Source: Lichenibacterium ramalinae (GTDB lineage Bacteria > Pseudomonadota > Alphaproteobacteria > Rhizobiales > Beijerinckiaceae). Taken from it: a stretch of 64,000 bases of DNA. The notes below the pieces were generated by a model. It had not been told where the DNA came from and searched no databases. It saw only the letters and a list, made by a program, of their open reading frames with translations. Shown here piece by piece: positions 7,934 through 63,387 of this stretch. Numbering within the stretch: position 1 is the stretch's first letter; every line of letters starts with the position of its first letter. Where the stretch lies: positions 1 to 64,000 of the forward strand of contig NZ_QYBC01000013.1 in NCBI RefSeq assembly GCF_004137085.1, read 5' to 3'. A program made the translations under genes and the position numbers.

Positions 7934-7938
7934 CCTGA

Positions 7939-9071: not shown

Positions 9072-9361
9072 CCGACGACACGCCTCCGAAGCCCCGCCGC
9101 GGCCGTCCCCGCGTGTACGCCACGCCCGAGGAGGCCCGCCTCGCCGGCATCGCTCGGGCCAACGCCGCGACGCGGGCACGGCGGCAGGCGAGGATGCATC
9201 GCACCCTTTCCCTGACGGCTGCCACCCTCGCCAAGGCCGAAGCTCTCATCGCCGCGCGCGGGCTCGACGGGATCACCGGGTTCACGGATCTGGTGTCGGC
9301 CCTGGTCGAGGAGGAGACGGCGCGGACCAAATCAGGTGACGCGGGGGGCGCTGCGCCCTAG
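9068..9361 (+). CDS. Ribbon-helix-helix-like DNA-binding protein
   Basis: The GTG at 9068 overlaps the preceding stop (GTGA). The 97-aa protein begins with an AT-hook-like 'PRRGRPRVYATPEEARLAG'. It continues with a basic helix and ends 'MHRTLSLTAATLAKAEALIAARGLDGITGFTDLVSALVEEE', a strand-helix-helix pattern compatible with CopG-type repressors. It resembles the protein at 3621-3869 in plan. It closes the orphan cassette before a strong terminator and could be its autoregulator; that is inference. Confidence 0.55.
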   Translation: MTDDTPPKPRRGRPRVYATPEEARLAGIARANAATRARRQARMHRTLSLTAATLAKAEALIAARGLDGITGFTDLVSALVEEETARTKSGDAGGAAP

Positions 9362-9479
9362 GTTGAGCCTGTCCCGGGCCGGTGATCGGTCGGCCTGGGG
9401 ATGAACCGCAGTGCACCACGCCGAACCCGTCCTCGGGATCGTCCCGCCCTCGTGTGCGGGGATGATGAGAAGAACGAAA

Positions 9480-9508
9480 GGCCCGCCGGGGTGACCGGCG
9501 GGCCTTTT
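9480..9508 (+). terminator. Intrinsic terminator of the orphan cassette
   Basis: A perfect 10-bp stem (9480-9489 with 9495-9504, loop GGTGA) is followed by TTTT. It lies about 120 nt after the last cassette gene. Confidence 0.85.
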
Positions 9509-9654
9509 CGATTCCGGGGTCCGGAGGCCGCATTGTCCATGTGGGCGGGGACACACGGGGACAGACGGCAGGAAATGGCCGGGTTTTTCCAGGTATCTCA
9601 GGGTACTGTTTCACGGCCCAAGATCGGCTAAGTCCCTGATATCGGACATGATCC

Positions 9655-9705
9655 GTCTCGTTCGGGACGAGGGGGTCGTAGGTTCGAATCCTATCACTCC
9701 GACCA
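9655..9705 (+). other. 3' fragment of tRNA-Pro(CGG); likely attachment site of the island
   Basis: The segment has the anticodon arm TCTCG-TTCGGGA-CGAGG (anticodon CGG at 9663-9665), the variable region, a T-arm with GGTTCGAATCC, acceptor CACTCCG, discriminator A and encoded CCA. Upstream of 9655 the sequence (TCGGACATGATCCG) is not a tRNA D-arm or 5' acceptor, so only the 3' half is present. Such half copies arise when an element integrates at the tRNA 3' end. The intact gene should lie at the other end, outside this window. Confidence 0.8.
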
Positions 9706-9957
9706 TGATCTCCAGCGGCTTACCAGTGCCGCCATCACATCACCTTCGACCCTTCATCGATCTCTTTTCCATGCGCGACGTGTGTGCGGGGCCTGCACCG
9801 GCGTGGCGGGCGAAGGACGGTCAGCCGTCGGCCCGGCGCGGTCTGGAGGCGCGATCCTGGCGCCCCTGGCCGCGTAGCGATAGGCGACAGGGCAAGCGGC
9901 GCGAGAGACCGACCCGGAACCATCGCAGGCCCGACGGGCCGAGAGACCCTGTCAGAC

Positions 9958-9990
9958 ACGAAAAAGCCGGGCAGAGCCCGGCTTTTTCGT
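9958..9990 (-). terminator. Terminator after tRNA-Gly
   Basis: 15-bp arms (9958-9972 and 9976-9990) flank AGA, with A5/T5 tracts in the stem. It lies directly downstream of the minus-strand tRNA and can act in both directions. Confidence 0.85.
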
Positions 9991-9995
9991 TCGAC

Positions 9996-10070
9996 TGGAG
10001 CGGGCGAAGGGATTCGAACCCTCGACCCCAACCTTGGCAAGGTTGTGCTCTACCACTGAGCTACACCCGC
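9996..10070 (-). tRNA. tRNA-Gly(GCC)
   Basis: Read on the minus strand from 10070, the sequence folds as a cloverleaf. The 5' acceptor is GCGGGTG, the D-arm has AGCTCAGTGGTAGAGC, the anticodon loop is TTGCCAA (anticodon GCC), and the T-arm has GGTTCGAATCC. The 3' acceptor is followed by T and encoded CCA. A strong terminator follows. Confidence 0.95.
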
Positions 10071-10240
10071 ATCCGTGCCGCGTGGCGACGAGGTGGGTTT
10101 TGCCGGAGATCGCGGACGAATGCAAGCGCGTTGTTGCCCTGGCTCCGCCCCGCCGTCTCGGCCGGAAGCGAGGACGCGGGCGCAACGGATGTCGACCCCG
10201 CGACGTTCGCTTCGAGACAGGGCGGGGACGGGAGCGCGAC

Positions 10241-10627
10241 ATGAGGGCCATGGCATTGAAAGCGGTGCTGCTGGGTGGGCTGGCGGCGGGCATAGCGGTC
10301 ACCGCCGTGGCGGCCCAGACGCCCGGAGGGCAGACGGGCGGTACCAGCGGCGGCACCGGATCGGCCAGCTCGAACGGCGGCCAGGGCGATGCCGGGGGCA
10401 CGGGCCACGTCGGCGTCACCACCGAAGGCTCCGGGAAGGCGGCCACGACGCCCCCGGCGGCGGGCTCCACGGCGGGCGCCGGCATGGGAAGCCCGATGGT
10501 CGGGACAGGTGCCACCGGCAATGGCGGCGTCATGAGCGGGACGACCGGCACGGCTCCGGCGGCGGGCACGACCCCGGCCGTCGGAACATCGCCGGCCGCC
10601 GGGACGGGCGTGACCGGCACCAAGTAA
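10241..10627 (+). CDS. Secreted Gly/Thr-rich low-complexity protein
   Basis: The start at 10241 (MRAMALKAVLLGG) has GGAG about 9 nt upstream. A clear Sec signal peptide (basic start, hydrophobic core 'ALKAVLLGGLAAGIAVTAVAA') with a probable cut after AVAA-Q is followed by about 100 residues of Gly, Thr, Ala, Ser and Pro. There is a PAAGTTPAVGTSPAAGTG repeat near the end. No domain is visible. It is probably a periplasmic or surface flexible protein. The next gene encodes a protein of the same type, so the two look like a duplicated pair. Confidence 0.6.
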   Translation: MRAMALKAVLLGGLAAGIAVTAVAAQTPGGQTGGTSGGTGSASSNGGQGDAGGTGHVGVTTEGSGKAATTPPAAGSTAGAGMGSPMVGTGATGNGGVMSGTTGTAPAAGTTPAVGTSPAAGTGVTGTK

Positions 10628-10672: not shown

Positions 10673-11080
10673 ATGAAGACGAAGTCGGGCGCCGCCACCA
10701 CCGCACTGATCCTGCTGCTGACCTCCGCAGCGGCCAGCGCGCAGACGACGACCCCTGGAGGGGGTTCCCCGTTGCCGGGCGGTGGCACCACGCGTGACCT
10801 GACCATGCCGGGCAGCGGCGGCGTCGCCGGGACGGGCCTCGGCGGCTCCACCGGCGGCACGGGCGACGGCACGAATGCGGGACATCCCACCGGCGGCGCC
10901 GGCGGGGCACCCGGCACGGGTGGAAGCGTCAAGGGCCCGGCCGGCCAAGGCATCGCGGGCCAAGGCTCATCGGCCGGCATCACACCCGGGACCTGGACGG
11001 CAGGCGCGGGACAGGGGACCGGGAGTGGCGGGACCGGTGGTGCGGCTGCCGGGGCGTCGTCGGGTGGCGCGTCGCACTGA
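10673..11080 (+). CDS. Secreted Gly-rich protein, paralogue-like
   Basis: The 135-aa protein opens with a signal peptide (MKTKSGAATTALILLLTSAAASA, cut before QTT). The mature part is almost only Gly, Thr, Ser, Pro and Ala ('GGGSPLPGGGTTRDLTMPGSGG'), with no cysteine or catalytic motif. GGGGAG lies upstream of the ATG. It follows the similar gene at 10241 by 45 nt in the same direction. Function is unknown; low complexity makes homology calls unreliable. Confidence 0.6.
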   Translation: MKTKSGAATTALILLLTSAAASAQTTTPGGGSPLPGGGTTRDLTMPGSGGVAGTGLGGSTGGTGDGTNAGHPTGGAGGAPGTGGSVKGPAGQGIAGQGSSAGITPGTWTAGAGQGTGSGGTGGAAAGASSGGASH

Positions 11081-11147
11081 CGCGGTCCCGCCGAGGCCGA
11101 AGCCGCTCAAGCGTTGGTTCGAGAGCGGTTCCGGCGGCAGGGGATCG

Positions 11148-11174
11148 CCGAGGCGATGCCGAGCCAGCCGGGGC
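11148..11174. repeat. 27-bp dispersed repeat, copy 1
   Basis: This matches 19387-19413 at about 24 of 27 positions (core CCGAGGCGAT.CCGAG.CAG). Both copies sit 4 nt beyond the stop codon of a minus-strand gene (yciB here). Confidence 0.7.
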
Positions 11175-11178
11175 CGCC

Positions 11179-11808
11179 CTAGAAGTGTTCGTCCGGCGGG
11201 ACGACGGTCTTGAGTTCGTGCCGCATGATCAGCGGCACCTGGGCGAGGGCGAAGACCACCGTCAACGGCATGGTGCCGAAGACCTTGAAGCCCGACCACA
11301 CGACGTCGCTCTGCGTGCGCCATACGATCTCGTTCAGCGCCGCCAGCACGAAGAAGAACAGGCCCCAGCGGAACGTCAGCTTGCGCCAACCGATCTCGTC
11401 GAGATGCAGCGCCGAATCGAGCACGATCGGCAGCAGGGGCTTGTTGAAGGCCAGGCCACCGAGCAGGGCCGTGCCGAAGATGCAGTTGATCACCGTCGGC
11501 TTGATCTTGATGAAGACCGGATTGTCGAAATAGAACGTCAGGGCGCCGAAGATCAGCACTGCCGCGGCCGTGACGACCGGCATGATGGGAAGGCGCCGCG
11601 TCAGCGCGTAGGAGGCCACCAGCGTCACCACCACTCCCACCATCAGCACCGCGGTGGCGACGTGGAGGCCGTAGCGCCAGGAGGCGAGGAAGAAGAAGCC
11701 GAGCGGGCCCAGTTCGAGCAGGAGCTTCAGCGTCGGGTCGATGGTGCGGCCCCGGGGCCGGGCGGCGGCGGGCGCTTCGGTCTGCTGGCCGTCCTCGATG
11801 GTCGTCAT
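11179..11808 (-). CDS. yciB: Inner-membrane septation protein YciB/IspZ
   Basis: The 209-aa protein has five to six hydrophobic segments and family-typical stretches: 'LLLELGPLGFFFLASWRYGLHVATAVLM', 'FDNPVFIKIKPTVINCIFG', 'WRKLTFRWGLFFFVLAALNEIVWR' and 'WSGFKVFGTMPLT'. The start at 11808 (MTTIEDGQQTE) gives a 25-residue cytoplasmic extension over the E. coli protein. The family acts in cell-envelope maintenance and septation at the inner membrane. It lies 105 nt downstream of ftsY on the same strand, the usual order in Hyphomicrobiales, and is probably co-transcribed with it. Confidence 0.93.
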   Translation of the reverse strand: MTTIEDGQQTEAPAAARPRGRTIDPTLKLLLELGPLGFFFLASWRYGLHVATAVLMVGVVVTLVASYALTRRLPIMPVVTAAAVLIFGALTFYFDNPVFIKIKPTVINCIFGTALLGGLAFNKPLLPIVLDSALHLDEIGWRKLTFRWGLFFFVLAALNEIVWRTQSDVVWSGFKVFGTMPLTVVFALAQVPLIMRHELKTVVPPDEHF

Positions 11809-11913
11809 ACCGTCCCTGTCATCATGCGGCCGGCCCCCGGCCCCCCGGGGCTGCGCCACCGGCGCTCGCTTACCCGCAAACTCCCGCCCCATAAAGCGGC
11901 GAAGCGGGTGATT

Positions 11914-13260
11914 TCATGGCTCGGCGGCGGCGGAACGGTCGAGCCCCGCGATGGCGCGGGCGAAATCACCGGCCGCGAAGGGTTCGAGATCGTCGATCCC
12001 CTCCCCGACCCCGATGAAATGCACCGGCAAGGCGAACTTCTCCGCCACCGCCACCAGGATGCCGCCCCGCGCCGTGCCGTCGAGCTTGGTCATGACCAAG
12101 CCGGTGACGCCGGCGACCTTGGAGAAGATCTCGACCTGGCTGAGGGCGTTCTGCCCCACCGTGGCGTCGAGCACCAGCAGCACCGCGTGCGGCGCGCCGG
12201 GATCGGCCTTGCGGATCACCCGCACCACCTTGGCGAGCTCCTCCATCAGCTCGGCCCGGTTCTGGAGGCGCCCGGCCGTATCGATCAGCAGGACGTCGGA
12301 GCCGTTCTCGCGGGCCTCCCGGATCGCGTCGAAGGCGAGGCCGGCGGCGTCGGCGCCCTGGGGCCGCGACACGACGGGCGAGCCGGTGCGCTCGCCCCAG
12401 ATGCGCAGCTGCTCGATGGCGGCGGCCCGGAACGTGTCGCCGGCCCCGAGCGTCAGCCGCTTGCCTTCCGCCGACAGTTTGGCGGCGAGCTTGCCGATGG
12501 TCGTGGTCTTGCCCGAGCCGTTGACGCCGACGATCAGCACCACGAAGGGCTTGTGGGCCGGATCCACCGCGAAGGGCACCGCCACCGGCGCCAGCACGGC
12601 CTCGACCTCGCGCGCCAGGATGGCCTGGACCTCCTCGGGGTCGATGCCCTTGTCGTAGCGTCCGCCGCTCACCGCGCCTGTGATGCGGGTCGCCATGGCG
12701 ATGCCGAGGTCGGCCCTGATGAGCACGTCCTCGAGGTCGTCGAGCGTCGCGGCATCGAGCTTGCGCTTGGCGAAGACGCCGACGATCCCCTCCTTGATGG
12801 AGGACGAGGACCGCGACAGCCCACCCTTGAGCCGCGACCACCAGCCGCGCTGCGAGGCGTCCGCCGGGGACTCGTCGGCCTCGGCCGGTGGCGGAACCGG
12901 GGGTGGCGGAGCCGGGGGTGGCGGAGACGCAACCGCAGTCGGAGCCGGAGGCGGCGGAGGCGCAACCGGAGCCGGAGCCGGGGCGGCCGGCACCGGGGCG
13001 GGCGGAGGTGCCGGCGCTGGCTCGGAGGTCGGCGCGGGCGTCGGCAAGGCTTCCGGCAAGGCTTCGGGAATCGCCGCCGGAGCCGGTCCGACGGGGGGCC
13101 GCACCTCGGCCGCCGGTGCAGGAGCCGGAGGCGTGGCGGGCGGCGCCGCTGGGGGTTCCGGCGCCGGTGCCGGCTCGGGTTCCGCCGCGGCACCGCCCCC
13201 GAACAGCCGCTTGAAGAACCCCGGCTTGCGCCGGCCGCCCTGATCGTCGTCCCCCGCCAT
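11914..13260 (-). CDS. ftsY: Signal recognition particle receptor FtsY
   Basis: The 448-aa protein starts MAGDDDQGG. Residues 10-23 (RRKPGFFKRLFGGG) form the amphipathic membrane-binding helix. Residues 24-125 are a Pro/Ala-rich disordered linker typical of alphaproteobacterial FtsY. The N domain follows from about 150, then the GTPase G domain with 'GVNGSGKTTT' (P-loop), 'DTFRAAA', 'DTAGR' and 'TKLDGTARGG', ending 'GVGEGIDDLEPF'. It receives ribosome-nascent chain-SRP complexes at the inner membrane. It is co-oriented with yciB and diverges from the pseudouridine synthase gene. Confidence 0.97.
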   Translation of the reverse strand: MAGDDDQGGRRKPGFFKRLFGGGAAAEPEPAPAPEPPAAPPATPPAPAPAAEVRPPVGPAPAAIPEALPEALPTPAPTSEPAPAPPPAPVPAAPAPAPVAPPPPPAPTAVASPPPPAPPPPVPPPAEADESPADASQRGWWSRLKGGLSRSSSSIKEGIVGVFAKRKLDAATLDDLEDVLIRADLGIAMATRITGAVSGGRYDKGIDPEEVQAILAREVEAVLAPVAVPFAVDPAHKPFVVLIVGVNGSGKTTTIGKLAAKLSAEGKRLTLGAGDTFRAAAIEQLRIWGERTGSPVVSRPQGADAAGLAFDAIREARENGSDVLLIDTAGRLQNRAELMEELAKVVRVIRKADPGAPHAVLLVLDATVGQNALSQVEIFSKVAGVTGLVMTKLDGTARGGILVAVAEKFALPVHFIGVGEGIDDLEPFAAGDFARAIAGLDRSAAAEP

Positions 13261-13329
13261 CGCCTTCGCTTTCCTCAATTGCGCCCGCGCGGCTCGCCAC
13301 GCGTCCCCGCTTCCGATAGACCCTGGGGC

Positions 13330-14022
13330 GTGCTGCCGATAGACCTCGCCCCCCGCCTCCTCTACCGCGACGCCCTGATGCTGGTGCTGGACAAGCCCGC
13401 CGGCATCGCCGTCCATCCCGGCCCCAAGGGCGGCGACAGCCTCGAGGCGCATTTCGACAGCCTGCGCTTCGGCCTGCCGCGCGTGCCGGCGCTGGCGCAT
13501 CGGCTCGACCGCGACACCTCCGGCTGCCTCGTCCTCGGCCGACACCGCAAGGCGTTGCAGAAGCTCGGCCAGCTGTTCAAGGCCGGCCGGATCGACAAGA
13601 CCTACTGGGCCGTGGTCGAGGGCTCGCCGGCAGAGGAGTCCGGCCTCATCGACCTCGCGCTCGGCCGCCGCGACGAGACGCGGGGATGGTGGATGCAGGT
13701 CGACCCGGCCGGCCAGCCGGCCGAGACGGCCTGGCGCGTGCTCGGCCGCCACGAGGGCCGCAGCTGGCTCGAACTCAAGCCCCGCACCGGGCGCACGCAC
13801 CAGATCCGCGTCCACTGCGCGGCCCTGGGCTGGCCGCTCGTGGGGGATCCGATCTACGGCGACCGTGCCGCCGGCGGCACGCTGCATCTCCTGGCCCGCG
13901 CCGTCTCGGTGCCGCTCTATGCGAGCCGCGCCGCGGTCGGCGCGGTGGCGCCGGTGCCGGGCCACATGGCCGATGCCCTCGCCGCCCTGGGCCATCGCGC
14001 GGAGCCGCAACCGGAAGGCTGA
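13330..14022 (+). CDS. RluA-family RNA pseudouridine synthase
   Basis: The catalytic motif 'AHRLDRDTSG' holds the essential Asp, preceded by 'LMLVLDKPAGIAVHPGP' and followed by 'PRTGRTHQIRVHCAALGWPLVGDPIYG', all hallmarks of the RluA group. The GTG at 13330 gives 230 aa and leaves 69 nt to the divergent ftsY start; no strong ribosome site confirms it. There is no S4 domain, as in the short RluA/TruC-like forms, so the target (tRNA or 23S rRNA uridine) cannot be assigned from sequence alone. Confidence 0.9.
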   Translation: MLPIDLAPRLLYRDALMLVLDKPAGIAVHPGPKGGDSLEAHFDSLRFGLPRVPALAHRLDRDTSGCLVLGRHRKALQKLGQLFKAGRIDKTYWAVVEGSPAEESGLIDLALGRRDETRGWWMQVDPAGQPAETAWRVLGRHEGRSWLELKPRTGRTHQIRVHCAALGWPLVGDPIYGDRAAGGTLHLLARAVSVPLYASRAAVGAVAPVPGHMADALAALGHRAEPQPEG

Positions 14023-14077
14023 TGCGCGATGGCGGCCCCGGCAGGCGAGTCAGGGACGCCGCCGACGTCCCGGCCGC

Positions 14078-14959
14078 TCAGATGCGCTTCAGCGACAGCG
14101 TCTTGCCCTTGCCGGGGTCGTTCATCCAGGACCCGTCGTCCTGGGTGTCGAGTTCGGTCGTGTGGCCCTTGCGGGCCGTCAGCACGAGGCGGCCCGACAC
14201 CATCTGCCAGCCGACCGGGTCGAAGATCACGATGCCCTGGTCGCGGCAGGCGGGCGCGAGCCGCGCCTTCAGCGTCGCGCCCGGCCCGTGCGCCTTGTCG
14301 TCGAGCGTCACCATGCAGCCGGTGTCGCGCGTCTTGTCGCGCAGCACCGCGTAGCGCCCCGCGACCTCGGCGGGCTTGTCGGCACCCGCCTTGTGCGCCG
14401 CCGCGGACCTGGCGGGTTCGGCCTTGGCGGACTCGGCCTTTGCGGTTTCCGCCTTGGCGGATGCGGTCTTGGCGGCGGCCTGCGCGGGTTCGGCCCGGCT
14501 CGCCGCCGCCGCCGCGGCGCGGTCGAGCGCGGCCTTGCCCTTGCCGTCCACGCTCGTCAGCTTGAGGGGCTCGCCCTGCGGGCTCGTCGTGCGGAAACCG
14601 TCGCCCTGCGCGTCGAAGGCCAGCAGGGCATCGCCGTGCGCGTCGTCGAGGCGCAGGCCGTCCCCCGTCGAGGTCCAGAAGGCGACGCCCTTGAGGCCCG
14701 GGAAGGCCCGGCGGCAGCCCGACGGCATGGCCACGGGCGCGCCCTTGCCGTCCACGTCCGGCCGCAGCGTCAGGCGGCATTGCCGGTCGCCGCCCTCCAC
14801 CGCCAGCGTCCAGGTGCTGGGCGCGCCGCCGGCCGCCAGGGCCGGGCCGACGCCACTGAGCACGATTCCGCCGCCGAGCGAGAGGGCGGCGAGCGCCGCC
14901 GCGAGGGAGGCGGACCGGCGCCCCGCGGGACCGGGCGAGGCGTTACGGGTAGGCTTCAT
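14078..14959 (-). CDS. Secreted Inh/AprI-type metalloprotease inhibitor, two domains
   Basis: The start at 14959 (MKPTRNASPG) has GAGG 9 nt upstream; an ATG at 14986 overlapping the previous stop is possible. A signal peptide (SLAAALAALSLGGGIVLSG...ALA) precedes a first Inh-like domain ('STWTLAVEGGDRQCRLTLRPD... GVAFWTSTGDGLRLDD'). An Ala/Lys/Glu linker of about 55 residues follows, then a second domain ('VAGRYAVLRDKTRDTGCMVTLDD... GWQMVSGRLVLTARKG'). The family uses beta-barrels to block serralysin-type proteases; a single domain is usual, so the doubling is notable. The targets are unknown. It lies downstream of the hydroxyacid dehydrogenase gene. Confidence 0.75.
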   Translation of the reverse strand: MKPTRNASPGPAGRRSASLAAALAALSLGGGIVLSGVGPALAAGGAPSTWTLAVEGGDRQCRLTLRPDVDGKGAPVAMPSGCRRAFPGLKGVAFWTSTGDGLRLDDAHGDALLAFDAQGDGFRTTSPQGEPLKLTSVDGKGKAALDRAAAAAASRAEPAQAAAKTASAKAETAKAESAKAEPARSAAAHKAGADKPAEVAGRYAVLRDKTRDTGCMVTLDDKAHGPGATLKARLAPACRDQGIVIFDPVGWQMVSGRLVLTARKGHTTELDTQDDGSWMNDPGKGKTLSLKRI

Positions 14960-14982
14960 CGGTCGCGGCCTCGGGTTTCGCC

Positions 14983-15969
14983 TCATGGCGTGCCGGCCAT
15001 CGCCTTGTAGCGGCCCTGCCAGGGCGTTTCGGCCACGGGCGTCAGCGGAGGTCGGTCCGCCTGCCAGCACAGGATGTTGTCTACCACGAGCTGGCCCATG
15101 GCGTCGCGCGTGTGGTGCGAGGCCGAGCCGACATGCGGCAGCAGCACGACGTGGTCGAGGTCGAGCAGGGCCGGCGGCACCTTCGGCTCCTCGGCGAAGA
15201 CGTCGAGGCCCGCGCCCAGGATGGTCTTCGACCGCAGGGCCTCGACGAGCGCGTCCTCGTCGACGACGGAACCGCGGGCGACGTTGATCAGGATGCCGGT
15301 GGGGCCCAGCGCCTTCAGGACCTCGGCGTCGACGAGGTTGCGGGTCTCGGCCCCGCCCGGCGTGATGACCACCAGGATGTCGCAAGCCTCGGCGAGGCCG
15401 ACGAGCGTCGGGCAATAGCGATAGGACACGTCCTGCTGCTGCCGGCGGCCGTGGTAGATGACGGTGAGGCCGAAGGCTTCGGCCCGCTTGGCCACCGCCT
15501 TGCCGATGCGGCCGAGGCCCAGGATGCCCATGGTGCGGCCCCGCAGCGTGTGGCTGAGCGGGAAGGCACCGTCGATCCACTTGCCGGCCCGGAGATGGCG
15601 CTCGGCGGCGGGCAGCTGCCGGACGGTCGCCAGCACGAGGCCGAGGGCGGTATCGGCCACCTCCTCGTCGAGCACGCCGGGCGTGTTGGTGACGACGACG
15701 CCGTGCGCCTCCGCCCAGGCGGCGTCGATCGCGTCGTAGCCCACGCCGAAATTCGCCACGAGCTGCAGCTTCGGGAAGCGCTCCAGGAAGGCGCCGTCGG
15801 CCCGCACATGGCCGCCGACCGCGATGGCGCCGACATCGCCGGCGACGCCGGCCAGGGCGGCCTCGGGGTCCGCGGCCTCCCACAGCTTCACGAGATCGGT
15901 CGCCCGGGCGAGGCCCTCGACCACGAGCGGCGCCATCGGTTTAGGCATGAGGACGAGGGGGCGGGCCAA
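14983..15969 (-). CDS. D-2-hydroxyacid dehydrogenase (glyoxylate/hydroxypyruvate reductase type)
   Basis: The 328-aa enzyme reduces 2-oxo acids with NAD(P)H. It has the Rossmann motif 'MGILGLGRIGKAVAKR', the catalytic Arg in 'LINVARGSVVDEDAL', Glu in 'GAGLDVFAEEP' and His in 'LLPHVGSASHHT'. I choose TTG 15969 because 'LARPLVLMPKPMAPLVVEGL' forms the conserved first strand and GGAG lies 9 nt upstream; ATG 15948 would cut that strand and has no ribosome site. It belongs to the GhrB/GyaR-like group; the precise substrate is not determined. The next gene follows closely on the same strand. Confidence 0.88.
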   Translation of the reverse strand: MARPLVLMPKPMAPLVVEGLARATDLVKLWEAADPEAALAGVAGDVGAIAVGGHVRADGAFLERFPKLQLVANFGVGYDAIDAAWAEAHGVVVTNTPGVLDEEVADTALGLVLATVRQLPAAERHLRAGKWIDGAFPLSHTLRGRTMGILGLGRIGKAVAKRAEAFGLTVIYHGRRQQQDVSYRYCPTLVGLAEACDILVVITPGGAETRNLVDAEVLKALGPTGILINVARGSVVDEDALVEALRSKTILGAGLDVFAEEPKVPPALLDLDHVVLLPHVGSASHHTRDAMGQLVVDNILCWQADRPPLTPVAETPWQGRYKAMAGTP

Positions 15970-56351: not shown

Positions 56352-57443
56352 TCAACGCGCAGGCCGGCCCTGGTTCCGCACCGTCGCCGGCACCGTCCGG
56401 CCCGGATCCCGCCGCAGGGCGAGGCCGTGCTCGGTCTTGTTCCAGCCCTGCGGGTCGCGCAGCAGCTCGAACAGGGCTCGCCAGGCCGCGGCCGAGACGA
56501 GCAGCAAGTAGAGGGGGAGGGTCGCCAGCCAGGGCACCAGGTCCGGCCGGCCCATGCGACGGGCCCCCGCCACGCCCGGCCACAGCGCCGCCAGCACGCC
56601 ACCGGCCAACAGGGCCGCGCTCGCCGCGACGAAGAACCACCAGGCGGCAGTCTCGGGCCGGAACGCGAGGCCCCACCAGGCTTCGGCGGCGGCGAGCGCC
56701 AGGAGCGGCGCCCCGAGCAGGCAGCTGAGCACGGTGCCGCAGAGCGAGACCGCCACCGACAGGCCGCCCCGACACCCGAGGTCGCGGAACAGCCGCACCG
56801 GATGGCGGCCGTGGACGATCAGCGTCACCATCCAGCCCTTGAGCCAGCGGGCCCGCTGGGGCATCCAGCGCGCCACCGTGAGCGGGGCTTCCTCGAACGT
56901 GTCGGAATCGAGCGAACCGAGACGGAAGCCGAAGCGCGCCAGGCGATAGCCGAGGTCGATGTCCTCGGTGACGTTCCAGGCGTCCCACAGGCCGACGTGG
57001 CGCAGGGCCGCAGCGCGGAAATGGTTGGAGGTTCCGCCGAGCGGCACCGGCAGGCCCAGCGCGGACAGCCCCGGCTTCACGCAGTGAAACAGCGCCGCAT
57101 AGTCGAGGGCGAACATGCGGGTGATCCAGGCGTCGTCGGCGTGGTCGATCGTCAGGCGGGCCTGCAGGCAGGCGAGGTCGTCGCCCGCGGCCGCGAACCG
57201 CGCGGCGGCCGCCCGGAGTTGGCCGGGGTCGGGCCGGTCCTCCGCGTCGAACACCACCACGAGCGCGCCGCGGGCGGTCTCGAGCGCGGCATTCAGCGCA
57301 CACGGCTTGGTGCGCGGTCGGCCGTCGCCGAGGACGACGACGTCGTAGGGGAGCGGCAGGTCCAGCCGCGCCGCCGCCGCCACCGTGGCGGCGTCGCAGG
57401 CTTCCAGCATGATCTTGATGTCGAGCTTGGCGCGGGGATAGTC
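56352..57443 (-). pseudogene. C-terminal part of interrupted processive glycosyltransferase (GT2)
   Basis: This fragment continues the frame of 62489-63387 after the transposon. It starts '(DYP)RAKLDIKIMLEACDAATVAA' and contains the DxD-like 'VVVFDAEDRPDPGQL', 'VTEDIDLGYRLARFGF' (ED), 'APLTVARWMPQRARWLKGWM' (QxxRW), then three to four hydrophobic segments. These are the marks of a membrane processive glycosyltransferase. It still has an internal ATG at 57410, but without the N-terminal half it is unlikely to work. The 8-bp target copy is 57436-57443. Confidence 0.85.
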
Positions 57444-57449
57444 GCGGCC

Positions 57450-57740
57450 TTATGTAGGAAACGCAACATTTGCCATCGTCGATGGTGACGTTTCCTCGTT
57501 GCGAGCGTCCATCATCATCCCGGTTCCTCGATCGCCATCGCTGAGGAATCGAACACCGAATGTCTCAAAGGCCTCGCGCACGGCTGCGTAAGCTTTACCC
57601 GACACCGGTTGTGAGGTCTTCATCTCCAGTCGCTTCACCGTCGACACCGACAAGCCGGCTGCCCGTGCGAGGTCCAACATGGACCAGTCGAGCATGCCTC
57701 GCGCACCACGGATCTGGCCCGGCGAAAGCGTATCAGCCAT
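57450..57740 (-). CDS. XRE-type HTH regulator (transposon passenger)
   Basis: The 96-aa protein has a Cro/C1 HTH: 'QIRGARGMLDWSMLDLARAAGLSVSTVKRLEMKTSQPVSGKAYAAVREAFETFGVRFL'. This plan, with a VRFL end, is common in short antitoxin-like regulators of mobile elements. The last codons run into the left terminal inverted repeat, so the gene ends at the very edge of the element. AGAGGA lies about 11 nt upstream of the ATG. Function in the element (repression of passengers or transposase) is inferred. Confidence 0.8.
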   Translation of the reverse strand: MADTLSPGQIRGARGMLDWSMLDLARAAGLSVSTVKRLEMKTSQPVSGKAYAAVREAFETFGVRFLSDGDRGTGMMMDARNEETSPSTMANVAFPT

Positions 57741-57964
57741 GAGCGAAGGTCCTCTCCTCGCCCGATAGTTTTTACGGGCGATGCACGGATTTACACGACG
57801 CTTGTGTGGTATGCAATTCCGTCATCTCGACCTTATCGCATCTTGAATTTCGTTCCGGATCAATTTCTGTCGAAGCCGGGTTAAGTCTCTATCGCCATTC
57901 AACCCCATGGCTTTCGGCGACTGAGGGACGCTTGCACCCTTGCCACAAAGGCTGGAGGCGCAGC

Positions 57965-58228
57965 GTGCCGTTATATTATTTCGATGTCCGCAACGCGGAT
58001 GGGCTTCATCGCGATGAAGTCGGAGATCACTTCGATAGCCTGGACGAAGCTATTGATATCGCTCAATCGCTCCTCCCGGATCTTGCTTCGAGAAAACTGT
58101 CGGACGGCGACTGGCACGATCTTTCTTGTGATGTGAGGGATGACGCCGGCCGTGTCGTCTACCAAGTAGAATTGACATATCGGGGAACGCGCATGCCGGT
58201 GAGACCGGCCTCCCGGCCGGCTTGGTGA
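57965..58228 (+). CDS. DUF6894-type small protein (transposon passenger)
   Basis: The GTG start has GGAGG 6 nt upstream. The 87-aa protein reads '(M)PLYYFDVRNADGLHRDEVGDHFDSLDEAIDIAQSLLPDLA' and ends 'CDVRDDAGRVVYQVELTYRGTRMPVRPAS'. The opening YYFDv.....D..G..f.sl.eA pattern is that of DUF6894 proteins, which are frequent in rhizobial genomes. The molecular role is unknown. It stands alone between the HTH gene and the DUF6883/DUF4926 pair. Confidence 0.75.
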   Translation: MPLYYFDVRNADGLHRDEVGDHFDSLDEAIDIAQSLLPDLASRKLSDGDWHDLSCDVRDDAGRVVYQVELTYRGTRMPVRPASRPAW

Positions 58229-58246
58229 GGCTGCTACATAGGTCTA

Positions 58247-58585
58247 TCAGTAGGGGTGGGCTGTAAATAATCGCCATTCCGCTGTCCCGTGGTCAATGCC
58301 CCATGCTGTCAGCACTTTAGGAGCAAAACCGTTAGGAGTTGCCATGGGACCCAAGCACTGAATTCGGATATCCCACGGCGTATGCTGAGCATTGGCGATT
58401 TGAGACGGATCGAAATGGCTTTTCAGCGCCGTCTCAAAAGTGTCGAGGTCAGACGGACTAAAGCCCCATCCAAGGAAGAACTTGGCCTTTGATCCGCCGC
58501 CCGGATGGCTTAAATTCAACAGGTAAGAAAGCAGTCTCTGCCTATCAACCTTCAGCTTTACCGGTAGCTGCAATGAGGTGTTCAC
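58247..58585 (-). CDS. DUF6883-type protein (transposon passenger)
   Basis: The GTG at 58585 lies inside the end of the DUF4926 gene; an ATG at 58624 is possible. The 112-aa product has 'LQLPVKLKVDRQRLLSYLLNLSHPGGGSKAKFFLGWGFSPSDLDTFETALKSH' and 'APKVLTAWGIDHGTAEWRLFTAHP'. The K...YLLN..HP.G..KA.FF pattern and a final W.i..g...prL.ta.P fit DUF6883. In other genomes this domain pairs with DUF4926 or forms toxin tips. A toxin-immunity or toxin-antitoxin role is inferred only. Confidence 0.7.
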   Translation of the reverse strand: MNTSLQLPVKLKVDRQRLLSYLLNLSHPGGGSKAKFFLGWGFSPSDLDTFETALKSHFDPSQIANAQHTPWDIRIQCLGPMATPNGFAPKVLTAWGIDHGTAEWRLFTAHPY

Positions 58586-58829
58586 GCGTTGCCCCCGGTA
58601 TAGCAGCGACTTTGCTTGCCTCAAGCAACAACAAAGCGTGGAATGGCTCTTCGAACTCTACCGTGTACGCCTCGCCAGCGCCATGCACGGCAACTACCGT
58701 GCCTTCGGAGCCAGCCGGCAAATATCCCCTTGGGGCGAGTTCGATGCTCCTGACTAGGCGAACGTCGCTGAGTTCGTCAATCGGAGACGGCCGAAACGGC
58801 TCAGCGTTGTAAAACAGTCGGGCGTCCAT
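58545..58829 (-). CDS. DUF4926-type protein (transposon passenger)
   Basis: The start at 58829 (MDARLFYNAEPFRP) has AAGGGG about 8 nt upstream. The 94-aa protein has 'IDELSDVRLVRSIELAPRGYLPAGSEGTVVAVHGAGEAYTVEFEEPFHALLLLEASKV', an SH3-like beta pattern (L.D.v.l.......l..G..GtVv.v......y.VEF) typical of DUF4926. The following DUF6883 frame overlaps it by 41 nt, so both are translated as a unit. DUF4926 is likely the partner that binds DUF6883. Confidence 0.75.
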   Translation of the reverse strand: MDARLFYNAEPFRPSPIDELSDVRLVRSIELAPRGYLPAGSEGTVVAVHGAGEAYTVEFEEPFHALLLLEASKVAAIPGATREHLIAATGKAEG

Positions 58830-59239
58830 GGCCAACCCCTTACCCACACGATACCACTGCGGTATCAGCTATGCTGATGGGAGAGCGCGAAACTCGCCCC
58901 AAGGCGCATTATGCAGGCCGTATTATATCAGGTGATTCGCGTTTTGCGGCCCATAGACTTCAGGATCGGTCAACCCGGAACGGGGCATGCGACGATGTGT
59001 CACAAAACTTGTTCAGAAAATATCCTCGCGTTTACAGTGACTTACTGAGTTTCGGGTTCCTCGGCGCTTTTAATGGTTTTTTGGTTCCCCCGCAGAAAAG
59101 TGACAAACCTCTTCCAAAACGGCCAAACTTTTTCAGCCAAGTAGAAAGCTTGAAGAATCAAAGAGTTACAAAATCGGTGTCAATCCGGGCTTCGTGAGAG
59201 TTGATCATCAAAAAATTTGATGATTGATGTCCCTGGAGG
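58830..59239. other. AT-rich gene-free stretch in the transposon
   Basis: This segment is clearly lower in GC than the host, with runs such as GGTTTTTTGG and CAAAAAATTTGATG. An open plus frame at 58871-59197 lacks a ribosome site and protein-like pattern, so I do not call it. The promoter of the DUF4926 operon should lie near 58850-58950, but I cannot place it. Confidence 0.4.
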
Positions 59240-59503
59240 CTAATCTAAAAGGATGTTCTTAGCCCCAATCGCTGCCATCACCTGCACCATGAACACGGCG
59301 GTGAACCGGCCTCGGGCGAGCTTGTTGCGGATGTTCGGCTCATTCTCGGGCACGCCAATCGCGCTCAGGCGTTCGGCTAGTTCCTTGTACCCGATCCCCC
59401 GGCGTTTCAGCTCCGCCTTGAGGACGTTTTTGACCTTAGCTTCCCATTGTTCCCCGCCATCGGCTGGCGCGGCTTGTGGGGCTGGGCTCACATTGTCGAG
59501 CAT
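59240..59503 (-). CDS. DUF6471-type HTH protein (transposon passenger)
   Basis: The start at 59503 (MLDNVSPAPQ) has CGGAG 9 nt upstream; the ATG at 59536 is less likely. The 87-aa protein has 'WEAKVKNVLKAELKRRGIGYKELAERLSAIGVPENEPNIRNKLARGRFTAVFMVQVMAAIG', an HTH of the DUF6471 type. It is divergent from the transposase gene and faces two direct repeats in the shared promoter region. It is the best candidate for the repressor that limits transposition. Confidence 0.8.
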   Translation of the reverse strand: MLDNVSPAPQAAPADGGEQWEAKVKNVLKAELKRRGIGYKELAERLSAIGVPENEPNIRNKLARGRFTAVFMVQVMAAIGAKNILLD

Positions 59504-59522
59504 GGCATCATCTCCGTAGCGA

Positions 59523-59585
59523 ATGCCATCATACACGATGCTTTTGCCCTTGACTACGATGCAAATATGCCATCATGTGCGATGC
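59523..59585. promoter_or_regulatory. Divergent promoter region with direct repeats
   Basis: ATGCCATCAT..-CGATGC occurs at 59523-59541 and 59567-59585, start to start 44 bp, about four helical turns. The first copy includes, on the minus strand, a TATGAT -10-like box 24 nt before the DUF6471 ATG. The second overlaps the region expected for the transposase promoter. It is probably the operator of the DUF6471 protein. Confidence 0.6.
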
Positions 59586-59601
59586 ATAAGCAGCGCGGAC
59601 G

Positions 59602-60573
59602 ATGGCAATGGCTCAGCACTTCCTCCTTTCGGCCCAGGCCCGCACCCTCTCCCTAGCCTCGATTTACAAGGCCGGTGAGGACGCCGCTTACGGCACGTTC
59701 TGCAAGATGCGCTGGGCCGAGACGGAAGGCGCCCCGGTATGCCCCCGCTGCGGTGGCCTTCGCCACTACGACGTGAAGGGCCGCCGCAGGTTCAAGTGCG
59801 CCGCCTGCGCGCATCAGTTTTCAGTCACCTCGGGGACGATCTTCGCCAGCCGCAAGATGGCCTTCGTGGACCTCTGCGCCGCCATCTGCATCAGCGTGAA
59901 CGCGGTCAAAGGCGTCTCCGCCCTCCAACTCGGCCGGGACATCGACTGCCAGTACAAGACGGCCTTCGTCCTCGCCCACAAGATCCGTGAGGCTCTGGCC
60001 TCCGAGGTCGAGGGCATGCAGCTCGCCGGTGAGGTCGAGGTTGACGGCGCCTACTTCGGCGGTAAGGTGCGCCCCGCCAATCACAAGGAGGATCGCCGGG
60101 ACCGCCGCAAGGCCGAGAACCAGAACGGCGAGCGCCGCGTGGTGATCGCCCTCCGCGAGCGTGACGGGTCCACCAAGACCTTCGTCACCAACACCGAGGC
60201 CGAGGGCGTCGCCCTAGCTGTCGAGAACGTGTCGGCCGAGGCGACCGTGTTTGCCGACGAGGCGAAGCACTGGGATGCCCTCCACAGCCGGTTCCCCGCC
60301 GTGGGCCGTATCAACCACTCCGAGAGCTACGTCACCGAGGAAGCCAACACCAATCAGGCCGAGTCCTACTTCTCCCGCCTCCGCCGCATGGTGGACGGCC
60401 AGCACCACCACGTCTCGGCTCGCTACCTCTATCAGTATGCCGCTGAGGCGGCCTGGAAGGAGAACAACCGTCGTCTCCCCAACGGCGACGCCTTCCGCCG
60501 CACGCTGTCCCTGGCGATGGGCTCGCCTGTGTCGCGGCAGTGGAAGGGGTACTGGGAGCGGTCGCAACCATAA
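59602..60573 (+). CDS. IS1595-family transposase (ISXO2-like)
   Basis: The 323-aa protein begins MAMAQHFLLSAQARTLSL; the second Met is an alternative start. A zinc ribbon (residues 46-70: 'CPRCGGLRHYDVKGRRRFKCAAC') is followed by 'FSVTSGTIFASRKM'. The DDE-type core has Asp in 'EVEVDGAYFGG', Asp in 'VFADEAKHWDAL' and the Asn/Glu site in 'TNQAESYFSRLRRMVDGQHHHVS'. It should cut and join the 57.4-62.5 kb element. All key residues are present, so it looks active. Confidence 0.95.
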   Translation: MAMAQHFLLSAQARTLSLASIYKAGEDAAYGTFCKMRWAETEGAPVCPRCGGLRHYDVKGRRRFKCAACAHQFSVTSGTIFASRKMAFVDLCAAICISVNAVKGVSALQLGRDIDCQYKTAFVLAHKIREALASEVEGMQLAGEVEVDGAYFGGKVRPANHKEDRRDRRKAENQNGERRVVIALRERDGSTKTFVTNTEAEGVALAVENVSAEATVFADEAKHWDALHSRFPAVGRINHSESYVTEEANTNQAESYFSRLRRMVDGQHHHVSARYLYQYAAEAAWKENNRRLPNGDAFRRTLSLAMGSPVSRQWKGYWERSQP

Positions 60574-60577
60574 TCGC

Positions 60578-61084
60578 TTACCGATAACCATTCCGCACGG
60601 CTGACTCGTAGTTCATTTTATAAAGTCGGATTGCCATCGCGTCTCTCGACACATTGAAATATTCGGCAAGCTCTGTAATTGTTTTATATCCATCTTTTTT
60701 TGCCTTTTTGATAAGGTCATTTGGCATAAGAATGTCAGCTGCTAATGAGTTAGCTTGGATCTCCACAGCATTGCTCAGCGCATCGGATCGTAGAAGCGCG
60801 TCCTCTACAACTCCATCTCCGATAATTTTCTTGTGCAATATGAAGTGTGCTATCTCATGCGCGATGGTGAAACGCCTCCTAGTTTCCGAATGCATTTCGT
60901 TGACGTAGATAGCGTAACCACTATCGCCGCCTTCCTCGTCGTCTTTTTTAATCATTCCTGAGACCTTTTCAGGAAGCTCGGTTCTATAAACTTTTAGGCC
61001 GAGATCATGCGCGAGCGATACAACCTTGATAGGTGGCCGCTTTTGATGCTCTTCGATAATTCTATCTTGCTCACGAAGCAACAT
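60578..61084 (-). CDS. ImmA/IrrE-family metallopeptidase (transposon passenger)
   Basis: The 168-aa protein has the zinc-protease motif 'RRRFTIAHEIAHFILH' (HExxH), 'NAVEIQANSLAADILMP' with the third ligand region, and a C-terminal 'TITELAEYFNVSRDAMAIRLYKM'. ImmA-type enzymes cleave HTH repressors of mobile elements. AT content is clearly higher than in flanking genes, a sign of separate origin. It starts one base inside the stop of the membrane protein gene (TAATG), so the two are coupled. Confidence 0.92.
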   Translation of the reverse strand: MLLREQDRIIEEHQKRPPIKVVSLAHDLGLKVYRTELPEKVSGMIKKDDEEGGDSGYAIYVNEMHSETRRRFTIAHEIAHFILHKKIIGDGVVEDALLRSDALSNAVEIQANSLAADILMPNDLIKKAKKDGYKTITELAEYFNVSRDAMAIRLYKMNYESAVRNGYR

Positions 61085-61500
61085 TATAGATCTCCGCTTT
61101 CTTCTTTTGCGCCCCTTACATTTGGAAAATTGTCTACTCTTGATGCTCTTCGTCTAACTCCGAATCCTCTTCCTGGGCTCCTAAAAGGAGACCCTTCCTC
61201 AAGCTGTTGAAAATACCTCTCGGATATTTCTCTAGCCGTTTTGTCTGCCCGTAATTCTGCTCGCTCAAGGACTGTTTGCATCCCAAGAAAACCCAGCCCA
61301 GTAAGAACAACTGCAACTAGGGCGATAACGATCCCTAGTACCGTGACCTCTAGGGAAACCTGCCCCAACATATATGTGTTAGCATCACCGGTAGGAGGCA
61401 ATGCGTCCTTACGAATCATTGAAAACCAAAGCGCAAAAAGCGCAATGTTTACAATCAGAAGTAAGAAATTACCGATACGGAAAAAATTAGAAAGCGACAT
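61084..61500 (-). CDS. Small membrane protein coupled to ImmA (transposon passenger)
   Basis: The start at 61500 (MSLSNFFRIGNFLLLIVN) is chosen ahead of the hydrophobic region. The 138-aa protein has two membrane segments: 'IGNFLLLIVNIALFALWFSMI' and 'VTVLGIVIALVAVVLTGLGFLGMQTVL'. A cytoplasmic basic tail follows ('KTAREISERYFQQLEEG... RGFGVRRRASRVDNFP'). No family is recognised. The TAATG junction with the ImmA gene suggests the pair senses something at the membrane and passes it to the peptidase; this is inference. Confidence 0.75.
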   Translation of the reverse strand: MSLSNFFRIGNFLLLIVNIALFALWFSMIRKDALPPTGDANTYMLGQVSLEVTVLGIVIALVAVVLTGLGFLGMQTVLERAELRADKTAREISERYFQQLEEGSPFRSPGRGFGVRRRASRVDNFPNVRGAKEESGDL

Positions 61501-61548
61501 CGTTTGGCCCCTGATCAACAGGGACCCCATAGGCAAACTGACCTTTTG

Positions 61549-61977
61549 TCAAACAGTCGCCCACACCCGCACGCCCTTCCTGATACCCTCGCTCCCGAGC
61601 TTCCCCCGCTTCCACTGGAGCGTAAGGGCCTGGACGATGCGGTAAGCGAGGGCCTTGCACAGCACCGGGTCGGAGGCGTCCATTGCCTTCGCCTCGGCTA
61701 CGCGGCGTGATAGCTCGCGGGTGTCCTGCGGGCCGTGCTCTCTCAGCGATGCGACACAGAGCGCCCATAGCTCGCCCCGGCGGAATAGCCGAGACGTGTC
61801 GGTGTAGGCCCGCACGTCGGCGGGATCGTTCGTGGCGAAGATCGCGAGCGTCGCGTTGACGTGGGCGAGATCGCGCCGGGCCTGCTCCGCCTTCTGCTCA
61901 TAAAGCTTGATCGACGCTTCGATGTCGTTCCGCTTGGCCTTGAGGGTGGCGATGATCTGAGGGGGAGGAAGGGCCAT
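61549..61977 (-). CDS. Coiled-coil/winged-helix-like protein B (transposon passenger)
   Basis: The start at 61977 (MALPPPQIIATLKAK) has GGGAG 8 nt upstream. The 142-aa protein has an N-terminal coiled coil ('LKAKRNDIEASIKLYEQKAEQARRDLAHVNATLAIF'). A helical domain follows, with 'LFRRGELWALCVASLREHGPQDTRELSRRV' and 'LAYRIVQALTLQWKRGKLGSEG', like a winged HTH. It follows its paralogue (61981-62421) by 3 nt. The family name is unknown to me; similar proteins may accompany related transposons. Confidence 0.7.
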   Translation of the reverse strand: MALPPPQIIATLKAKRNDIEASIKLYEQKAEQARRDLAHVNATLAIFATNDPADVRAYTDTSRLFRRGELWALCVASLREHGPQDTRELSRRVAEAKAMDASDPVLCKALAYRIVQALTLQWKRGKLGSEGIRKGVRVWATV

Positions 61978-61980
61978 GGC

Positions 61981-62421
61981 CTATCTCCCGACCGCGAGGC
62001 GCCAGAGCGACGCCCCGTCCCGCAGCCCGGCCTTGTCCACGATCCCGCGCCGATCAAAGCGGGCCATCATGGTTCCGACCTTGTGCGTCATGGTGAGGGC
62101 AAGGCGCCTATCGTCGTGATCCCAGCCCTGAGACGTGATGACGTGTCGAGCAAGCTCACGAGTGGACAGGGGCTTGGTGGAGGCGTCCATGGCGGCCTTG
62201 CAGAGCGCGAACATGTCCGACCGCTTCAGGGCCTTGGTGAGCCCGTGGTAGGCCGTGACAGGGCCTACAGCCGCCGCTGTGGGATCAAACAGCCGAACGG
62301 CGCCGACCACGTGAATGAGATCCGCCTTGGCTTCGGCCAGGCGATCGGTCAGGCTATCGATCTGAGCTTCCACCTCGGCCTTCTTGAGAAGGAGCTGGGT
62401 GACGACGTGAGGCGTAGACAT
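61981..62421 (-). CDS. Coiled-coil/winged-helix-like protein A (transposon passenger)
   Basis: The 146-aa protein is a paralogue of the next gene: coiled coil 'QLLLKKAEVEAQIDSLTDRLAEAKADLIHVVGAVRLFD', then 'LKRSDMFALCKAAMDASTKPLSTRELARHVI' and 'ALTMTHKVGTMMARFDRRGIVDKAG'. It starts at 62421 with no ribosome site. A TATGAT box at 62427-62432 ends 5 nt before the ATG, which suggests a leaderless transcript beginning near the right terminal repeat. Function is unknown; DNA binding is inferred. Confidence 0.7.
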   Translation of the reverse strand: MSTPHVVTQLLLKKAEVEAQIDSLTDRLAEAKADLIHVVGAVRLFDPTAAAVGPVTAYHGLTKALKRSDMFALCKAAMDASTKPLSTRELARHVITSQGWDHDDRRLALTMTHKVGTMMARFDRRGIVDKAGLRDGASLWRLAVGR

Positions 62422-62423
62422 GC

Positions 62424-62432
62424 GCCATCATA
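62424..62432 (-). promoter_or_regulatory. TATGATGGC box before passenger A
   Basis: The minus-strand string TATGATGGC also occurs at 59525-59533 before the DUF6471 gene, so one regulator may act on both promoters. Here it would place the transcript start at or next to the ATG. Confidence 0.5.
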
Positions 62433-62488
62433 GGCAATGGCGAAGGCATCGCATAGGTTGATGTTTGTTGCGTTTCCTACATAAGGCC

Positions 62489-63387
62489 GGATAGTCGAGG
62501 GCGTCGAGGTTGCGCACCACCTGCGCCAGCATCCGGGCCTCGCGGAAGAGCGGCACCACCAGCGTGTAGATCGGCAGGGCGCCGTCCGGGACGCGCGCCG
62601 CGGGCGAAGCCGGGCGCCGGGCGCCGCTCGCCGCCGCCACGGCGAGGCGCTGCGCCACCGCGGCGGCGAAGAGCGGGAAGAGCAGGACCACGACGACCAG
62701 CCATCCTCGCGGCGGGTCCGCCGCCGTGACGAAGGCCATCGACGCGGCCGCGCCCAGCGCCACCGCCTTCTGCACCGGCGTGGCGCCGCCCCGCGCCGAA
62801 AGCGCCGCGTCCCAGGCCGCGAGGCCCGAGGCGCTCCGCTGGGCCAGCCCGGCCGCATCGTGGCGGCGCAGCAGCGCTTCGAAACGCCTGGGCGTCGTGA
62901 TGGCGAAATCATAGGCGCCGGGGTCGGCGGCATGGGCGGCGAGCAGGCCGCGCAGTTCCTCGCCGCGCGGTGCCAGCACGGCATGGAGGTTCGCGGCATT
63001 GGGGGCCAGTGTCGCGGCGCCGGAGCGGCCGTGCGGGCCCGGCAGGACACCGCGGCTCAAGGGCAGGGCCCGGTCGAGATAGGGCACGCCGAGGTGCCGG
63101 GCGAGCGACCGGAAGTAGCGCGCCTCGGCGAAGCCAAAGCCCAGCAGGGCCGCTTCCCCCGTCACCGCCGCCGCCGCGGCCGCTGTCGCGGCGAGCCGCA
63201 GGAGCGACGGCGCGACAGCTTGCGCGAGGAGGAAGTCCAGTTCGGGCGGGAGCGCGTCGCTTCCGGCAAGCAGGCCGAAGGTGTCTCGCAGGCTCCGCGT
63301 CGGCGCGGCGGCCCCTGATGCCGCAGCGCGCCGCGCGGTCGCGACGGCAGGGCCGGCATCGGCAGCGAACGGGTCGGCAAAGGCCAT
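62489..63387 (-). pseudogene. N-terminal part of interrupted processive glycosyltransferase (GT2)
   Basis: This opens MAFADPFAADAGPA. Residues 30-150 resemble a GspE/MshEN-like N-terminal domain ('PPELDFLLAQAVAPSLLRLAATAAAAAA', 'ARYFRSLARHLGVPYLDRALPL'). Two hydrophobic segments near 215-250 and the GT2 start 'LPIYTLVVPLFREARMLAQVVRNLDALDYP' follow, and then the transposon interrupts. Joined to 56352-57435 without the second target copy, the frame gives 660 codons plus stop. The truncated product would end about 12 residues into the element. Confidence 0.85.

Follow-up and report, generated by a model that had tools for sequence, protein, structure and literature searches.

The DNA analysed here (the window) is a stretch of 64,000 nucleotides of Lichenibacterium ramalinae (contig NZ_QYBC01000013.1, positions 1 to 64,000), in which a whole transposon of the IS1595 family, 5045 bp long, was located at 57445-62489 within a gene for a GT2 glycosyltransferase. 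Comparison with related elements makes it likely that this transposon belongs to an IS1595 group in which a small protein distinct from the transposase chooses the target. The protein is referred to below as CC (coiled-coil and winged-helix) and is most likely, as judged from sequence comparisons, an exchangeable target selector. An earlier note on this DNA, made from the letters alone, was partly supported: its anatomy of the element holds, but parts of the core machinery were read as cargo and the targeting was overlooked.

Related elements and recurrent insertion sites

Searches with the transposase matched 42 of 397 genomes of the order, 16 of 385 of the class, and 28 of 341 of the order of genome G924, together with 12 loci among named contigs and three of the six genomes of the genus. 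From 98 transposase matches, 20 without ends and a target copy of at least 7/8 and one duplicate were removed, which left 77 non-redundant elements. As to ends without matching target copies, which the earlier note had named as a possible sign against its reading, the copies were identical at 8/8 positions in 76 of 77 elements, although this quality is partly by construction because at least 7/8 was required for selection. The end pattern searched at 3 mismatches in 298 genomes gave matches in 18, at about the same number of places as the backward control, and only near-perfect end pairs were therefore used. In a rescue round L127, L134, L198, L199, and L201 were accepted, L138 and L139 were excluded as unreliable, and the rest gave no ends.

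Insertion sites were read from the rejoined host DNA, and for the first set the target open reading frames (ORFs) supplied labels A, B, and C before any CC comparison. Six sites were each hit at least twice and together account for 38 of the 77 elements (Table 1). The insertions at A, B, and C lie on the same base pairs, except that L108 is shifted by one base and the copy in L159 departs from the pattern, and both orientations were found at each (same/opposite: A 4/5, B 6/3, C 3/5). A description of site E as intergenic was dropped, since open frames cross some of its places. The 38 elements outside the labelled sites A-G include L029 and L161, with flanks that match and a site resembling E.

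Table 1. Insertion sites of the 77 related elements
Site	Target	Elements	Hosts and remarks
A	GT2 'DYP'	9	hosts span 6 family codes
B	GT2 'GTSNHF'	9	hosts in 8 families
C	comM Walker B 'ELPEF'	8	hosts under 7 labels, two perhaps one family
D	other comM place, residue about 255	2 (L099, L137)	own CC sequences
E	short motif like CCCCCGAGGATATTTG, score at least 10	8 (L150, L151, L154, L156, L166, L167, L169, L033)	hosts of family code f74 or Roseobacteraceae; distinct CC clade
F	third GT2 place, residue about 403	1 (L142)	own CC sequence
G	gene end	2 (L170, L031)	four codons before the stop in L170; homologous flanks in L031

The CC protein and its link to the site

A CC homologue was present in 77 of 77 elements (iterated profile search, E 1e-3), mostly about 110-160 aa in size, and in 69 of 77 it was located just inside the right end, on the minus strand and within 200 bp. 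The earlier note had listed the two CC paralogues of the window, CC1 and CC2, among the passengers, an assignment that does not stand for a family found in every element and following the target site. Within the first set, CC identity was 0.50 between elements at the same site and 0.22 between elements at different sites, against 0.62 and 0.60 for the transposase, and the residual identity difference was reached in 0 of 2000 permutations. The nearest CC neighbour had the same site in 22 of 22 classed elements and the nearest transposase in 12 of 22. Careful trees of CC and transposase were built from 38 rows, with L107 (a near copy of L095_6504) left out; the seven site labels required 6 changes on the CC tree, which is the minimum, and 15 on the transposase tree. 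A control on a 34-row subset gave 18 changes for DUF6471, 13 for the transposase, and 6 for CC. CC clades were recovered in bootstrap trees at 100% for A, 100% for B, 90 for C, 96 for E, and 76 for G. Because CC requires 6 changes where the transposase requires 15 (38 rows) and the DUF6471 control 18 (34 rows), it is CC rather than the transposase that tracks the target. Four held-out elements (of 33), located at B (L159) or C (L133, L136, L175) and with their sites read first, each obtained the best score with the right class.

It is unlikely that the transposase itself recognises the sites and that CC has some other role, such as regulation or immunity. The transposase does appear to contribute a preference: target copies of all 77 elements favour the palindromic form [CG][AG]N[AT][AT]N[TC][CG], which is attributed to the transposase and persists, more weakly, among the 38 elements outside the labelled sites. 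Three pairs of transposases that are 92-96% alike also have a common site, and the labels partly cluster on the transposase tree. However, A, B, and C were each rejected as transposase clades by the approximately unbiased (AU) test (p 1e-39, 4e-5, and 2e-39, respectively), transposase identity barely differs between same-site and different-site elements, and CC sorts with the minimum number of changes. The 8-mer preference may be the transposase's own, with the locus chosen by CC.

The AlphaFold2 model of CC2 (predicted local distance difference test, pLDDT, 83.7) has a long helix at residues 6-47 followed by a winged-helix layout, and the model of a class-C CC (pLDDT 78.4) has the same arrangement; the long N-terminal helix is likely a coiled coil. 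Neither CC1 nor CC2 had a significant match in Pfam or NCBIfam, the best sequence match of CC to the PDB was at E 0.12, and ten CC proteins compared with PHROGs gave none below 0.035. Helix, linker, and wing all differ between classes, so the DNA-reading part was not localised among the three.

Evidence for separate insertions at one site

When the flanks of the window's element are joined with a single target copy, the GT2 frame reopens (...LDALDYPRAKLDIKIMLE..., at LDYP). A search of the six genus genomes with the joined flanks located a related element in G086 at the identical base pairs (5599 bp, transposase 85% identical to that of the window, target copies GGTAGTCG). Together with the recurrent sites of the group, this shows that the place is not arbitrary, a point that the earlier note missed. 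Cargo in common with the window comprises the helix-turn-helix (HTH) protein, DUF6894, and DUF6471, and no match was found in the G086 element to DUF6883, DUF4926, the M78 peptidase, or the membrane ORF; the passengers, which the earlier note had considered might turn out to be a fixed block, are partly different and form no such block in G086 (one element compared, passengers not searched singly). Empty sites in close relatives, which the same note had proposed to look for, were found, as the GT2 gene is uninterrupted across both GT2 sites (A and B) in G013, G054, and G133 of the same genus; G111, also of the genus, gave no match to the joined flanks. Both G086 and G655 carry two elements, one with a class-A and one with a class-B CC, that occupy sites A and B in what their positions suggest is a single GT2 gene (coordinates in Table 2).

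Target-copy pairs carry the host's own codon variant, with GATAGTCG twice in the window and GGTAGTCG twice in G086. Since the pair in each genome matches its own variant, two insertions at one site are indicated rather than one old insertion, and, as regards the recent insertion suggested in the earlier note, the matching copies are consistent with insertion after the window and G086 lineages split. Insertions at A, B, and C are likewise regarded as separate events because of the host-variant target copies, the two orientations, and the whole sites in genomes of the same genus. Recurrent sites are a property of the element group and not the result of arbitrary placing.

These results bear on co-inheritance, in which one ancient entry per site was followed by recombination that swapped the inner genes while the CC end stayed linked to the site. 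The usual position of CC beside the right end (69 of 77) suits it, but the two target copies of a pair agree with one another and with the host codon variant, the CC end faces either flank since both orientations occur at A, B, and C, and the sites are whole in close relatives. Moreover, L104 (site A) and L106 (site C), in which CC is encoded on the other strand at a distance of 2.7 and 0.66 kb, respectively, from the right end, are nevertheless grouped by site. Co-inheritance is accordingly given slightly less credence than recognition by the transposase. Target choice guided by RNA or DNA, as in IS110/IS1111 or CRISPR-associated transposons, has precedents among site-specific small elements (PMC11187229, in the portion of the text available), but matches between an element and its own site were not in excess (9.6 nt against 9.5 nt for the control; 26 elements, exact matches only) and no Rfam match was found in the window's element, which leaves it very improbable. 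An ordinary IS1595 transposon with passengers, inserted without site choice, would share the anatomy seen here and would suit the 38 of 77 relatives outside labelled sites, but deserves just as little credit when the same base pairs are hit across genera and families.

Elements in which CC class and site disagree

Several results weigh against target choice by CC. The elements outside the labelled sites make up 38 of the 77, and label E was assigned with contexts and CC scores already known. A CC was called class-like when its best score to the profile of class A, B, or C was at least 125 bits, a threshold set afterwards; by this measure 36 elements are class-like, of which 26 occupy the corresponding site, including 22 that belonged to the training sets, and 10 lie elsewhere (A: L038, L145, L118, L201; B: L116, L124, L101, L164, L127; C: L134). 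L117, also off site, scores 124.5 and falls just under the threshold. For 37 held-out elements (the 33 above and four from the rescue round), 4 of 8 class-like calls were on site, and none of the other 29 was at A, B, or C. The insertion point of eight class-like elements off A or B ranked 7 to 1355 by pattern scoring, and no hidden copy of the site was found there.

Hosts were examined for six of the ten misses (L116, L124, L164, L145, L118, L101). Three are partly excused because the host site is occupied, absent, or unrecognisable: G086, host of L116, has both GT2 sites occupied; G659, host of L124, has no GT2 match at 1e-40; and in the GT2 match of G1251, host of L164, neither motif was seen. 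No such excuse applies to L145, where the A motif is whole in host G016; host G008 of L118 and L101 has A whole and B altered. A decayed element, L192 (G133:C97, 1577-3784), is flanked by 8-bp target copies that match and encodes a broken CC resembling those of site A; it lies outside GT2, a few kb from the GT2 gene.

Further points on the same side come from the transposase and from the CC fold. The 15 changes on the transposase tree compare with a shuffled-label mean of 23.7, and 0 of 200 shuffles were as low. The CC2 fold had no match in the PDB at E 0.001 (best 0.054), and in the weak fold list, which includes ribosomal proteins and methyltransferases, Fur-type and other DNA-binding proteins lead; we take these leading matches to be winged-helix proteins. 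The hit rate among held-out elements and the residual transposase signal slightly lower the likelihood of CC-dependent choice, which is still put forward as likely, and of the new kind of insertion proposed below.

Anatomy, regulators, and cargo of the window element

The features of the element are listed in Table 2. Perfect ends, target copies, and transposase family matches bear out the description of a complete IS1595-family transposon with extra genes. The element itself was correctly recognised, with coordinates (57444-62488) that were off by one base, and its inverted repeats are perfect as reported, over 24 bp instead of 23. The 8-bp target duplication is intact, as had been claimed, with GATAGTCG on both sides and an identity of 8/8. 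The 323-aa transposase is intact and matched DDE_Tnp_IS1595 (3.5e-38) and Zn_ribbon_IS1595 (1.2e-13) in Pfam and NF033547 (2e-42) in NCBIfam; the zinc-ribbon DDE transposase, the length of the ends (about 25 bp in the family), and the 8-bp size of the target copies place the element in the family. Nine further ORFs, two of them overlapping, accompany the transposase; the gene kinds given earlier stand, and the number (eight) does not. With up to 2 mismatches allowed, no second copy of the end sequence was found in the genome that contains the window (draft, 5.8 Mb, 76 contigs).

Table 2. Features of the window element and its host gene, with two element pairs from other genomes
Feature	Coordinates	Strand	Evidence or remark
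Left target-site duplication GATAGTCG, 8 bp	57437..57444	.	GT2 'DYP' codons on minus strand
Left terminal inverted repeat, 24 bp	57445..57468	+	perfect
XRE-like HTH ORF	57450..57740	-	HTH_3 2e-4, below cutoff
DUF6894 passenger	57965..58228	+	1.6e-18
DUF6883 passenger	58247..58624	-	8.5e-16
DUF4926-like passenger	58545..58847	-	4.6e-5, below cutoff; overlaps DUF6883 ORF
DUF6471 protein, putative regulator	59240..59536	-	8.5e-30; divergent from transposase
IS1595-family DDE transposase with zinc ribbon, 323 aa	59602..60573	+	Pfam, NCBIfam
ImmA/IrrE-like M78 metallopeptidase, CapP-like	60578..61084	-	Peptidase_M78 3.2e-25; capP 1.1e-33
Small putative membrane protein adjoining M78 gene	61084..61536	-	judged from sequence; no significant family
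CC2, coiled-coil and winged-helix, candidate target selector	61549..61977	-	site-A (GT2 'DYP') clade
CC1, second divergent CC copy, candidate selector for another site	61981..62421	-	
Right terminal inverted repeat, 24 bp	62466..62489	-	perfect
Right target-site duplication GATAGTCG, 8 bp	62490..62497	.	
Split GT2 glycosyltransferase gene, 5' part	62498..63387	-	
Split GT2 glycosyltransferase gene, 3' part	56352..57436	-	Glyco_trans_2_3
L035 pair in G086:C11	7174-12772 and 13202-16327		GT2 sites A and B
L095 pair in G655	10996-15279 and 6504-10566		GT2 sites A and B

The nearest relative of CC1 in the first set is in the G013 element L117 (63%). L193 (G013:C4) has one end and about 2.4 kb in common with the L117 element (G013:C1), and the outer flanks of L193 mismatch each other.

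DUF6471 was present in 62 of 77 elements and is a near-core component. It occurred without the XRE-like HTH protein in 60 elements and the HTH protein occurred without it in 13, with both in two (window and G086) and neither in two, and from this distribution the two seem to replace each other; either may regulate transposition. The motif GCCATCATNNNCRATG occurs three times in the window (59525-59540, 59569-59584, and 62424-62439; 0.18 expected), beside the DUF6471 and transposase promoters and upstream of CC1, and is a possible shared operator within this element. As a family feature such an operator was rejected, since in just 2 of 55 elements did a comparable pairing score above every one of 20 shuffles; in the window itself the pairing was reached by 2 of 20 shuffles.

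Window cargo consists of DUF6894, DUF6883, the DUF4926-like ORF, and the CapP-like M78 peptidase with its membrane ORF. The M78 and membrane ORFs overlap, and a similar pair is found in L118. In related elements, a scan of the 70 longest of 166 ORFs of at least 110 aa gave matches to DNA methyltransferases (3), KilA-N (2), Mrr (2), BstA-like proteins (2), AbiEii (1), and Panacea (1). The suggestion that the cargo serves regulation or defence remains plausible in view of the capP match of the M78 peptidase and of the methyltransferases, BstA-like, AbiEii, and Panacea proteins in relatives; CC and DUF6471, counted as passengers in the earlier note, are instead core and near-core components.

Proposed mechanism and significance

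Less firmly than CC-dependent choice as such, we favour a protein-guided insertion of a new kind, in which an IS1595 transposase, aided by no Tn7 component but by a single exchangeable selector (winged-helix, about 140 aa), would carry kilobases of cargo to chosen 8-bp positions in conserved genes, including the comM Walker B region; the window element would have two selectors and perhaps two addresses. Briefly, CC would bind host DNA at a conserved place, which for the window element is the GT2 codons for 'LDYP', and, by contacting the transposase, would bring it with its ends to that place, where the transposase would join the ends across 8 bp of the preferred form in either orientation. CC2-dependent insertion would be expected at CGACTATC in both orientations, and CC1 may aim at a second site. 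Exchange of the CC gene would confer a new site, with transposase, regulator, and cargo keeping separate histories.

Choice of the insertion place through a separate, exchangeable selector would apparently be new among such elements. If the proposal is true, transposition aimed by a dedicated selector has arisen apart from Tn7 and may need just two small proteins, and elements of a 'simple' insertion sequence (IS) family gain or switch specificity by trading one gene. Genes filed as IS1595 passengers would need to be read again as machinery, and the determinant of the target of an IS1595 transposase would become testable by a one-gene swap. The group would also provide a compact system for the study of directed insertion, with natural selectors for several addresses already at hand, and would be a further unrelated system converging on comM Walker B, which Tn6022 and Tsy reached independently.

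Comparison with known systems

The IS1595 family was reportedly defined by Siguier in 2009. Its terminal repeats of roughly 25 bp and its target duplications of 8 bp, as well as mobilizable forms such as tISCpe8 and MTnSag1, are described in the available portion of PMC5704250, and the present elements agree with it in transposase family, ends, and target copies. They differ in that no selector is described for the family in that portion (PMC5704250), whereas here a protein with a predicted DNA-binding fold is present in every element and tracks the site. A literature search, with subscription journals mostly outside its reach, found neither a selector reported for IS1595 elements nor any account of such elements targeting comM or GT2.

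Mutator-type elements of the TnGBS, ISLre2, and ISKra4 groups also belong to the bacterial DDE elements and insert with a defined preference; according to the part of PMC3942029 available, it is a transposase signature, with no separate protein, that goes with their insertion upstream of promoters. IS110/IS1111 elements with seekRNA are also small and have specific, changeable targets (PMC11187229, available portion), but theirs is an RNA-guided DEDD transposase, and no guide-like match was found here among exact matches. Tsy is a non-Tn7 element with a selector for comM Walker B and a small HTH protein in the operon; it differs, as far as the available text of PMC10293859 goes, in its tyrosine recombinase chemistry, the lack of detected inverted repeats, and a tyrosine-recombinase-like selector.

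A parallel to the proposed function of CC is offered by Tn7 (TnsD, glmS) and Tn6022 (TnsF, comM), in which, on the evidence of the available sections of PMC10293859, insertion into conserved coding sequence is guided by modular protein selectors, and the comM Walker B region used by Tn6022 is that of site C here. CC would most likely work in the manner of TnsD or TnsF; kinship with them was not detected in family searches. Core genes of the TnsB, TnsC, or TniQ type were not found among the ten element ORFs scanned (Pfam, NCBIfam). The Tn7-like systems use TnsA, TnsB, and TnsC with TniQ/TnsD or TnsF (PMC10293859, same sections), whereas the elements described here combine a single transposase, of IS1595 type, with a small protein of predicted winged-helix fold, insert in both orientations with 8-bp target copies, and occupy several addresses within one group.

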